This document shows positions 9,975 through 44,284 of a DNA stretch of 62,666 nt, piece after piece. A program made the position numbers and the translations under genes. Under the pieces are notes generated by a model. It ran no database searches and was not told the DNA's origin. It saw only the letters and a list, made by a program, of their open reading frames with translations. The stretch comes from Syntrophomonadaceae bacterium. Lineage in GTDB: Bacteria > Bacillota > Syntrophomonadia > Syntrophomonadales > Syntrophomonadaceae. The stretch is taken from NCBI GenBank assembly GCA_012522955.1, contig JAAYJK010000102.1, forward strand, positions 1 to 62,666. The letters are read 5' to 3'. Every line of letters starts with the position of its first letter. Within the stretch, counting starts at the first letter, position 1.

Positions 9975-10072
9975 TGGCGGAAGCGTGTGAGAATCGAACT
10001 CACCCGTGACGGGACCACCGCCACACGACTGGATTTGAAGTCCAGGCGGCCCACCAGGACCGATCCGCCTCC
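9975..10072 (-). tRNA. selC: tRNA-Sec (anticodon TCA)
   Basis: This 98-base tRNA gene is read on the minus strand, starts GGAGGCGGATCGG and ends with an encoded CCA. The anticodon stem-loop CTGGACTTCAAATCCAG contains TCA, which reads UGA. The extra length comes from the long variable arm (around GTGTGGCGG...CCCGTCACGGG) and the extended acceptor stem typical of bacterial tRNA-Sec. With selA, selB and selD in the window, the Sec-decoding set is complete. It has its own candidate promoter and terminator. Confidence 0.96.
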
Positions 10073-41038: not shown

Positions 41039-41077
41039 TTCATTTGCATTGAATCTCAAAAATGCATCCTTCTCGAT

Positions 41078-41167
41078 GGAGGGGTGTCCGAGCGGTTGAA
41101 GGAGGCGGTCTTGAAAACCGTTGAACCTTTGCGGGTTCCGTGGGTTCGAATCCCACCTCCTCCGCCA
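41078..41167 (+). tRNA. tRNA-Ser (anticodon TGA)
   Basis: GGAGGGG acceptor 5' arm, loop CTTGAAA with anticodon TGA, a long variable arm typical of class II tRNAs, TGGGTTCGAATCCCA T-arm, and encoded CCA. First gene of the cluster. Confidence 0.96.
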
Positions 41168-41184
41168 TTATAGTAAAAAGTTAC

Positions 41185-41278
41185 GGAGAGATGGCCGAGT
41201 AGGCTGAAGGCGCTCGCCTGCTAAGCGAGTAAGCGGCTAATACCTGCTTCGAGGGTTCGAATCCCTCTCTCTCCGCCA
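41185..41278 (+). tRNA. tRNA-Ser (anticodon GCT)
   Basis: Starts GGAGAGATGGCCGAG, loop CTGCTAA with anticodon GCT, long variable arm, GGGTTCGAATCCC T-arm and encoded CCA. It reads AGC/AGU codons. Confidence 0.96.
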
Positions 41279-41339
41279 TATTTGCAGTAAGAGAGCAAAA
41301 CCCGAACAGATGGGTTTGGATGCATAAATGGATCAATAG

Positions 41340-41416
41340 GCGCCCGTAGCTCAGCTGGATAGAGTGACAGGCTACGAACCTGGAGGTCGGGGGTTCGAAT
41401 CCCTCCGGGCGTGCCA
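41340..41416 (+). tRNA. tRNA-Arg (anticodon ACG)
   Basis: GCGCCCGTAGCTCAGCTGG start, loop CTACGAA with anticodon ACG, short variable loop, encoded CCA. Its wobble A34 is the standard substrate of TadA, whose gene is 156 bases downstream. Confidence 0.96.
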
Positions 41417-41495
41417 TATTTTCATTGCTGATTAAAAAGCAATAAAGGAAAACCGTTGGGTTTTCCTAATTTACTGTAAAAACCCCAGAGAACAT

Positions 41496-41571
41496 GCGCC
41501 CGTAGCTCAGCGGATAGAGCAACGGTTTCCTAAACCGTGTGCCAGGGGTTCGATTCCCTTCGGGCGCACCA
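41496..41571 (+). tRNA. tRNA-Arg (anticodon CCT)
   Basis: GCGCCCGTAGCTCAGCGG start, loop TTCCTAA with anticodon CCT, encoded CCA. The tadA frame begins one or two bases after its CCA. Confidence 0.95.
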
Positions 41572-41572
41572 T

Positions 41573-42088
41573 ATGGTGGTGATTCCCATTAACAGGGATG
41601 AAGAATATATGAGAGCCGCGCTGAAATTGGCTTATCAGGCTGGACAAAAGGGTGAAATTCCGGTAGGCGCAGTGGTAGTTGTTGAGGATACAATAATTGC
41701 CCGAGCCTGCAATGAGAAAGAACTGCGCCAGGATGCCACTGCTCATGCAGAATTACTGGCTTTGCAGCAGGCAGCGGAATATATCGGCGGTTGGCGTTTA
41801 AGCCATGCCACCTTGTATACTACATTGGAACCCTGTCCCATGTGTGCCGGAGCTATGGTTAACGCCCGGCTTGGCAGTTTGGTGTATGCGGTGCGGGACC
41901 TTAAGGCAGGAGCGGCTGGAACCTTATTGGATATTGTCAGAACTCCCGGCTTGAATCATCAGGTTCAAGTTAAAGAGGGGGTATTGCAGGAAGAGGCTTC
42001 CCAGCTGTTAAAAGAGTTTTTCGATAATTTACGGAGAGATGGCCGAGCTGGCCGAAGGCGCTCGACTCGAAATCGAGTAGGCGGCTAA
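41573..42088 (+). CDS. tadA: tRNA adenosine deaminase TadA (3' end inside a tRNA gene)
   Basis: TadA converts A34 of tRNA-Arg(ACG) to inosine. It has the deaminase motifs HAELLAL (zinc His plus catalytic Glu) and PCPMCAGAM (two zinc Cys). The start is ATG 41573 or a GTG at 41576 or 41579, immediately after tRNA-Arg(CCT); no clear ribosome site is visible, since the region is tRNA. The last 19 codons (RRDGRAGRRRSTRNRVGG and stop, from about 42032) are encoded by the tRNA-Ser(CGA) gene, overlapping it by 56 bases. The protein is 171 residues, longer than usual by this basic tail. Confidence 0.93.
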   Translation: MVVIPINRDEEYMRAALKLAYQAGQKGEIPVGAVVVVEDTIIARACNEKELRQDATAHAELLALQQAAEYIGGWRLSHATLYTTLEPCPMCAGAMVNARLGSLVYAVRDLKAGAAGTLLDIVRTPGLNHQVQVKEGVLQEEASQLLKEFFDNLRRDGRAGRRRSTRNRVGG

Positions 42089-42126
42089 TCACCGTCTCGT
42101 GAGTTCGAATCTCACTCTCTCCGCCA
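42033..42126 (+). tRNA. tRNA-Ser (anticodon CGA), overlaps tadA
   Basis: GGAGAGATGGCCGAGC start, loop CTCGAAA with anticodon CGA, long variable arm, GAGTTCGAATCTC T-arm, encoded CCA. Its 5' 56 bases also encode the TadA C-terminus and stop. Confidence 0.95.
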
Positions 42127-42169
42127 GAAAACAAGCAATATCAAGCATAAATACAATTGAATAGCGTAT

Positions 42170-42264
42170 GGAGAGGTGGCTGAGTTCGGCTGAAGGCGCT
42201 CGATTGGAAATCGAGTAGACGGCTAATACCTGTCTCGCGGGTTCGAATCCCGCCCTCTCCGCCA
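42170..42264 (+). tRNA. tRNA-Ser (anticodon GGA)
   Basis: GGAGAGGTGGCTGAG start, loop TTGGAAA with anticodon GGA, long variable arm, CGGGTTCGAATCCCG T-arm, encoded CCA. Its anticodon reads UCC, the specifier of the serine T-box upstream. Confidence 0.96.
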
Positions 42265-42277
42265 TTAACGAATTACC

Positions 42278-42312
42278 AAGGGGTTTCAGACGTTGTGCTG
42301 AAACCCCTTGTG
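42278..42312 (+). terminator. Hairpin after the tRNA cluster
   Basis: AAGGGGTTTCA (42278-42288) and TGAAACCCCTT (42299-42309) form an 11-base-pair stem. The following sequence is only mildly T-rich (GTGTCT), so it may act as a weak terminator or processing signal. Confidence 0.6.
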
Positions 42313-42388
42313 TCTGGGGGTAAATTCTAGGACAAATGGATATTATGGTATTATTAGATAAGAGAAAAGTCTTAAGGGGTGATATAGA

Positions 42389-44284
42389 ATGAGTCGATGT
42401 GAAAAAAGCAGCATAATGGATTATCTTAAGGAGCATTATCCAGAAAAATTCACTACAGCAGATATGGCGTTTAAGAAAATTCAACGGGGGAACAAGATAT
42501 ATATTGGGACCGCAGCCGGAGAGCCAAAATATCTGGTTAGATCGTTGATGGAGTACCTGAACCAAAATCCCTCGGCTTTCTTTGATGTTGACATTTATCA
42601 TGTATGGACATTGTTTGATGACAGAGAATTCCTGTTCGAAAAATATAAACGGAATTTCAGAGTTAAATCCTTTTTTATTGGAGATAGCAATAGAGATGCC
42701 ATTAATAAGGGAGATGCTGATTACACCCCGGTTTTCACCTCCAGGATACCACAATTATTCAATCGTAAATCTTTTCCGATTGATATTGCCCTGGTTCAGG
42801 TATCTTTGCCAGATGAGCATGGCTATTTTAATTTAGGGGTTGGGGTTGATATTACTAAAGCTGCCGTAGAGAATGCAGGAGTGATTATAGCACAGGTCAA
42901 TGCCCATATGCCCAGAGTTCATGGAGATGGCTTCATCCATATAAAGGATATACACTATATTATTCCCTATGATGAACCCTTAACTCAATACGAGTTTGAC
43001 AAAGAAAACGAGATTGCATTACAGGTCGGCCGGCATGTGGCCAGTTTGGTCCGGGACGGGGATACTATTCAAATCGGGTATGGAAATATACCCTTTGGGG
43101 TTTTATCCTGCCTGGGCCAGAAAAAAAACCTGGGTGTGCATACAGATCTAATAACCGATGCCATTGTTAACTTAATGAAAACAGGGGTTGTTGATAACAG
43201 CAAAAAAAGCATAAACAAGGGGAAAACCATCGGAACATACTGTTTGGGCAGTAAGGGGACCTATGCCTTTGTTAATAACAATCCATCGGTTGAGCTAAGA
43301 AGAATTGATTATGTAGACAATCTTTTGACGATTGCTCAGCATGACAATATGACGGCCATTAATACTGTTATGCAAATGGATCTTACTGGGCAAGCTTCAA
43401 CTGATTCACTGGGAAATGTCTTTTATAGCGGCATAAGTGGATTTGCCAATTTTATCCGGGCTACTCTGCTGGCTAAAAAAGGGAAAATCATTATCGCCAT
43501 GAAATCTACGGCCAGGAAGGGAGAGGTTTCCAAAATAGTGCCCACTCTGGACGAAGGCTCAGGGGTAAGTCTGCATAGGGGTGATGTGCAATATGTAGTA
43601 ACAGAATACGGAATAGCCTACCTGCAAGGTAAGAACTTGAGGGAGCGAGCCCTGGAATTGATAGCTATCGCCCACCCCAAGTTTAGACCCTGGCTCATTG
43701 AGGAAGCAAAAAGGCGAAACCTTATTGACCGAGATAAAAAGTTCGTTCCAGGGCACAGAGGTAAATACATGGAAGAATATGTAGCTCATAGGACTACTAA
43801 AACCGGCTTGGAGATACTATTAAGGCCTATCAGAATCAGCGATGAAACCCGGGTGAGGGAGTTCTTCAACTCTCTTTCTGATAAAAGTCTTTACTTAAGA
43901 TTTTTTACCCACCGGGCTTATGTTCCCCACGAAAGCTTACAAGATATTATTACCGTTGATAATGCCAGAGGGGTATCGATTCTGGCCATAATTCAACAGG
44001 AAGCAGAAAAACAGGAACAAGTTGTAGGGCTGGGACAATACTTTATAAACGAGGCCGATTATTCAGCCGAGGTCGGTTTTGCCACTAGTGATAATTATCA
44101 AAACAATGGTATAGCCTCGATATTATTGGCTCATTTGACTTACTTAGCCAAGAAAAATGGATTGCTAAGCTTTACCGCCTCGGTGCTGTCAGAAAATAGA
44201 GCCATGGTTCGGGTACTAAAAAACATAGGCTTTGATCACAAAAGCTCAGAAGATGGAATTATCGAACTGGAAAAAATGTTTTAA
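42389..44284 (+). CDS. Acetyl-CoA hydrolase/CoA-transferase fused to a GNAT acetyltransferase domain
   Basis: This 631-residue protein has an N-terminal class I CoA-transferase/acetyl-CoA hydrolase region (about 15-460) with GTAAGEPKYLV, HDNMTAINTVMQMDLTGQ, SGISGFANFIRATLLAKKGK and VVTEYGIAYLQGK, where the Glu could be catalytic. A C-terminal GNAT domain (about 470-631) follows, with VGFATSDNYQNNGIASILL as acetyl-CoA loop. Such fusions are known; the transferase part resembles 4-hydroxybutyrate CoA-transferases. It could activate or deactivate acyl-CoAs and acetylate a partner protein. GGGGTGATATAG precedes the ATG. It stands alone between the tRNAs and the structured RNA. Confidence 0.85.
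   Translation: MSRCEKSSIMDYLKEHYPEKFTTADMAFKKIQRGNKIYIGTAAGEPKYLVRSLMEYLNQNPSAFFDVDIYHVWTLFDDREFLFEKYKRNFRVKSFFIGDSNRDAINKGDADYTPVFTSRIPQLFNRKSFPIDIALVQVSLPDEHGYFNLGVGVDITKAAVENAGVIIAQVNAHMPRVHGDGFIHIKDIHYIIPYDEPLTQYEFDKENEIALQVGRHVASLVRDGDTIQIGYGNIPFGVLSCLGQKKNLGVHTDLITDAIVNLMKTGVVDNSKKSINKGKTIGTYCLGSKGTYAFVNNNPSVELRRIDYVDNLLTIAQHDNMTAINTVMQMDLTGQASTDSLGNVFYSGISGFANFIRATLLAKKGKIIIAMKSTARKGEVSKIVPTLDEGSGVSLHRGDVQYVVTEYGIAYLQGKNLRERALELIAIAHPKFRPWLIEEAKRRNLIDRDKKFVPGHRGKYMEEYVAHRTTKTGLEILLRPIRISDETRVREFFNSLSDKSLYLRFFTHRAYVPHESLQDIITVDNARGVSILAIIQQEAEKQEQVVGLGQYFINEADYSAEVGFATSDNYQNNGIASILLAHLTYLAKKNGLLSFTASVLSENRAMVRVLKNIGFDHKSSEDGIIELEKMF

Follow-up and report, generated by a model that had tools for sequence, protein, structure and literature searches.

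The 3′ end of tadA lies within an overlapping tRNA-Ser(CGA) gene in a Syntrophomonadaceae bacterium and its relatives

Introduction

In animal mitochondria, tRNAs punctuate the transcripts and can overlap the neighbouring mRNAs (for example PMC4624183 and PMC3471875). A protein frame there abuts or overlaps a tRNA, and processing of the tRNA sets the 3′ end of the message. The locus described here, in which the tadA gene of a Syntrophomonadaceae bacterium runs into a tRNA-Ser(CGA) gene, is alike in this anatomy; however, mitochondrial stop codons that are incomplete are completed by polyadenylation after cutting, whereas tadA has a full TAA inside the tRNA that would be lost by cutting. It also differs from mitochondrial punctuation in lying in a bacterial, nuclear-type genome and in having a conserved Arg codon shared between the two genes.

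The tyrT operon of Escherichia coli contains tpr, a small separate frame on tRNA-derived repeats that encodes a basic peptide. Both cases yield a basic peptide from sequence that includes parts of tRNA genes within a tRNA operon, but at the present locus it is an enzyme's own conserved end that lies in a functional tRNA. That enzyme belongs to the TadA family of tRNA adenosine-34 deaminases, which convert A34 of tRNA-Arg(ACG) to inosine. Ordinary bacterial loci with tadA and tRNA-Ser(CGA) share the gene neighbours, the protein family, the fold and the LR end with this one, but their stop precedes the tRNA with a gap of at least 3 bases, whereas here the stop is inside it. Mitochondria thus offer familiar examples of frames ending at or inside a tRNA; for the bacterial tadA case we found no published description, and a search of mainly open literature did not turn up any bacterial gene for an enzyme that is completed by a tRNA in this conserved manner.

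Results

We analysed a window of 62,666 nucleotides (the whole stretch of DNA under study, contig JAAYJK010000102.1 of assembly GCA_012522955.1), whose nearest named relatives are Syntrophomonadaceae and Syntrophomonas. The protein encoded between two tRNA genes of its tRNA cluster (Table 1) is identified as TadA by family model, active-site residues and predicted fold: it scores 183.8 bits against NF008113 (cut-off 150), its HAE and PCxxC motifs are present with H58, A59, E60, P87, C88 and C91 invariant across 60 sequences, and its predicted model (pLDDT 90.7) has 7cph and 2b3j as best PDB matches and agrees with the TadA of B. subtilis and S. aureus at 0.6-0.9 Å rmsd. In this model a long C-terminal helix spans residues 139-155. 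The overlapping tRNA was recognized by ARAGORN as a foldable class II tRNA-Ser with a long variable arm, a CGA anticodon and an encoded CCA; it reaches 55.8 bits with Infernal (cut-off 29), has a fold z-score of -2.9 and is the single tRNA-Ser(CGA) copy found in the genome. Elsewhere in the window, at 9975-10072 on the minus strand, lies a tRNA-SeC(TCA) gene, so the genome may use selenocysteine.

Table 1. Features of the tadA-tRNA cluster, in window coordinates
Feature	Position	Strand	Remark
tRNA-Arg(ACG), predicted TadA substrate, same cluster	41340..41416	+	only copy found in genome
Terminator-like hairpin between the two tRNA-Arg genes	41446..41467	+	weak: shuffled sequence gives about as many
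tRNA-Arg(CCT), directly 5′ of tadA	41496..41571	+	same place in most relatives
tadA open frame	41573..42088	+	start ATG 41573, GTG 41579 or ATT 41588; stop TAA 42086-42088
GGTGGTGA, likely tadA ribosome-binding site	41575..41582	+	GGYGGTGA in most relatives
Shared codon 154 (CGG, Arg)	42032..42034	+	one tRNA leader base plus tRNA bases G1 and G2
tRNA-Ser(CGA)	42033..42126	+	bases 1-56 double as tadA coding sequence and stop
tRNA bases 12-14	42044..42046	+	CGA (Arg158) in window; TGA stop in short-form relatives
tRNA-Ser(GGA), next cluster gene	42170..42264	+	from tRNA search

The tadA frame is open on the plus strand from 41573 to a TAA formed by bases 54-56 of tRNA-Ser(CGA), and the tRNA gene thereby contributes the last two bases of codon 154, all of codons 155-171 (17 codons) and the stop. 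The first-pass annotation of this DNA had proposed that the TadA frame has no stop before tRNA-Ser(CGA), which our recomputed coordinates and the presence of the same junction and frame in relatives bear out. Its derivation of the tadA end and stop from tRNA bases 1-56 likewise stands, while its count of 19 whole codons has to be replaced by the two bases and 17 codons given above. An alignment of tadA ends in relatives, which it had suggested as a check, confirms that the tRNA gene encodes the 3′ end of tadA. The first-pass annotation had not noticed that the two genes share the Arg154 codon, that the stop has two positions, or that the overlap was gained and lost repeatedly.

To follow the junction among relatives we used a pattern that joins FFxxL to an Arg codon ending in tRNA bases G1 and G2 and continues into the 5′ end of tRNA-Ser. 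It hit 40 of the order's 63 genomes, against none for a reversed-pattern control, and 20 of 398 genomes drawn from the whole phylum, among them members of the distant families f16 and f114. The f16 cluster is identical, with the order Ser(TGA)-Ser(GCT)-Arg(ACG)-Arg(CCT)-tadA-Ser(CGA)-Ser(GGA), and the overlap occurs in the same frame in another Bacillota genome (L084). The overlap between the protein gene and the tRNA gene is true and old, and the same DNA is used for an RNA as well as for a protein. Four genomes (G001, G006, G013 and G033) lacked a match to either tadA or tRNA-Ser at our thresholds, probably due to the tRNA cluster breaking assemblies.

The Arg codon spans the border between the two genes, and the frame then runs on to whichever in-frame stop the tRNA offers. 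In TadAs that do not overlap a tRNA, drawn from many phyla, the border position is Arg in 83 of 84, and 11 of the 84 end exactly there; in our model Arg154 lies at the end of the predicted RNA-binding C-terminal helix. The sole free base of codon 154 in an overlap is tRNA base -1, which is A in 25 and C in 21 of 46 overlaps and never G or T, so that codon 154 encodes Arg in every case. At other tRNAs of the same loci base -1 is T 216, C 87, A 33 and G 28 times, a contrast with a Fisher P of about 1e-20 that is too strong since the genomes are related and simple counts overstate their independence. On the TadA tree base -1 changes at least 5 times, always between A and C. A search of the 398 genomes for G or T at this base returned one match, a tRNA-Ser(TGA) outside tadA. 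The free base is thus held to the two letters that keep Arg, which indicates that selection at the protein level reaches the tRNA border, and codon 154 is the one place where the constraints of the two genes can be separated.

Beyond the border, two main forms were observed. In the short form, T at tRNA base 12 creates a TGA at bases 12-14 and the tail reads LRRDG; in the long form, C at base 12 leaves the frame open to a TAA, TAG or TGA at bases 54-56 and the tail reads LRRDGR.GRRRSTRNRV.G. Two further genomes, L084 and L187, stop at bases 45-47. As we read the cloverleaf, the D stem pairs base 12 with G23; a single T-to-C change would then strengthen a tRNA pair and add 14 residues to the protein. 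Structure prediction gives low confidence to the tail after helix 139-155, with residues 163-171 below 50, and the TadA C-terminal helix is described as essential for binding of the anticodon stem-loop (PMC8216470). The tRNA thus supplies the last residues of a functional helix, Arg154 and Arg155, followed by a segment that is probably just tolerated. At L046:3440-3465, a Coriobacteriia TadA ends in LRRDGGGFRP with no tRNA at that place, and its DNA (CGGCGCGATGGCGGAG) resembles a tRNA-Ser 5′ end, which could be a relic or chance.

The overlap is present in the Syntrophomonas order, f16, L084 and L187, and on the TadA tree, a short one with poor resolution, 17 state changes are required. The overlap seems to have been lost in several lines (such as L025, L029, L031 and the group L028/L037/L141), which suggests that it is not required. 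Among non-overlapping loci, 51 of 86 have tRNA-Ser(CGA) within 300 bases 3′ of tadA, and in some relatives the gap is only 3-8 bases, so that a small deletion would be enough to create an overlap. We infer that the overlap arose by deletion of such a short gap. This would be viable because tRNA-Ser begins with GG and a preceding C or A restores an Arg codon; only one of the three frames then keeps the Arg codon across the border, which would explain the repeated use of the same frame, and the remaining tail would be a tolerated by-product of the deletion.

The order tadA then tRNA-Ser(CGA) is common to Bacillota, Chloroflexota, Nitrospirae and others. At one locus (L202, G120 C59:45500-49053) tRNA-Ser(CGA) carries an insertion of about 2.2 kb, with a complete tadA and the tRNA 5′ half up to the anticodon stem on the left, a second tadA 3′ piece and a tRNA-Ser on the right, and an HxlR-like regulator and a broken integrase-like start in the middle; the insert resembles the decayed remains of an element whose attachment site was the anticodon arm. 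At a second locus (L175, G072 C62:26800-28800) the break in the tRNA-Ser that follows tadA falls at this same point of the anticodon stem; the first part of that tRNA is intact and carries the tadA end LRRDG with a stop, and 165 bases further downstream there is a different tRNA-Ser(CGA).

At the other end of the gene, ATG 41573 lies one base beyond the terminal CCA of tRNA-Arg(CCT), and the earlier proposal that TadA starts directly after this tRNA is doubtful: most relatives have the ribosome-binding-site-like GGYGGTGA at this place, and in six of them an in-frame stop falls within that stretch, so their start must lie about 14-21 bases after tRNA-Arg. At the matching place the window and three relatives have no ATG, GTG or TTG, and ATT or ATA stands there; a start of the window's tadA at ATT 41588 is possible, with GTG 41579 and ATG 41573 as alternative candidates. 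A conserved hairpin around the start was considered and set aside, having three invariant pairs and no covariation.

From established RNase P biology, the 5′ end of tRNA-Ser(CGA), 42032/42033, is presumably where RNase P cuts. A weak scan from 41039 to 42400, including the interval between tRNA-Arg and tRNA-Ser, found no promoter-like site, though a promoter inside tadA could have escaped it. tRNA-Arg(CCT), tadA and the two tRNA-Ser genes may share one transcript; if they do, RNase P has to cut at this position to release tRNA-Ser. With that cut tadA would lose its stop together with two of the three bases of codon 154, leaving a stopless message that ends after the first base of that codon; ribosomes stalled on it would be cleared by tmRNA, which is present in the genome. 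Conversely, a ribosome reading into the tRNA would have to unfold its 5′ half. Once co-transcription is granted, the gene anatomy itself implies that each transcript would yield a complete TadA or a mature tRNA-Ser(CGA) but not the two together, and TadA levels should stay low as a result. The idea that tRNA 5′-end processing takes away the tadA 3′ end is accordingly upheld for the case in which both genes lie on one transcript, where the cut necessarily takes the stop. A slow RNase P leader was also considered, since C(-1) could pair with G73, but this reading was dropped: one pair falls short of the threshold of two, other tRNA-Ser genes often have C(-1) as well, and A(-2)C(-1) is reported as one of the best leaders for the E. 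coli enzyme (PMC9433436).

Discussion

We put the probability of the whole explanation, an old overlap with Arg154 selected at the border and with an inferred deletion origin and shared transcript, at roughly 0.8. A sequence error or a wrong tRNA call is a negligible prospect. The window is part of a draft assembly in 137 contigs, and the first-pass annotation had itself named a sequence error that deleted an earlier stop as the finding that would undo its reading; such an error is ruled out by the same junction in relatives, since it recurs in dozens of separately assembled genomes, within one long contig in some (G007, G025 and G038), and a wrong tRNA call fits poorly with a score so far above the Infernal cut-off. 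It is also very improbable that residues 155-171 of the long form act as an added RNA-binding segment selected as protein, even though this tail is strongly basic, occurs in 25 long-form loci and comes after the RNA-binding helix. Its letters are fixed by the tRNA, its variable sites show silent as well as amino-acid changes, it is predicted to be disordered, sister lines end after LRRDG or lack the overlap, and the 11 non-overlapping TadAs noted above end at the Arg itself. With its varied length and repeated loss, the basic tail, which had been singled out as a meaningful feature of the protein, is probably tolerated and not selected: its sequence is dictated by the tRNA, and many relatives end after LRRDG or even at the Arg154 position.

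The competition between TadA translation and tRNA maturation that the first-pass annotation had proposed may or may not amount to regulation. The overlap may be purely passive, a costless accident of compaction in which neither product limits the other, tRNA-Ser having its own promoter or being cut only after enough translation, with the Arg codon still selected; we consider this a serious contender, at a little under even odds. The repeated losses of the overlap, the short gaps in relatives that make the deletion route easy and the tolerance of two tail lengths all agree with it, but the weak scan found no promoter-like site in the last part of tadA, and any transcript with both genes loses the stop on cutting, whatever its purpose. 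That the overlap is instead a working switch, by which each transcript is spent on tRNA-Ser(CGA) or TadA and RNase P activity sets the TadA level, seems unlikely. Within such a switch the long-form loop could sense TadA itself: the long-form tail has four CGA codons and one CGC codon, tRNA-Arg(TCG) was not found in the genome, and these codons appear to be read here solely by tRNA-Arg(ACG), the tRNA that TadA edits.

When a protein gene runs into a tRNA gene, a mistake in the annotation is usually assumed; in the present case the arrangement is conserved, and the overlap carries protein-level selection at its border codon. It illustrates how a gene that has lost its own stop codon can persist by using stops inside a tRNA. 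It also provides a natural system for testing how a single RNA is divided between translation and tRNA processing in bacteria, for an enzyme that has its substrate tRNA in the same cluster.
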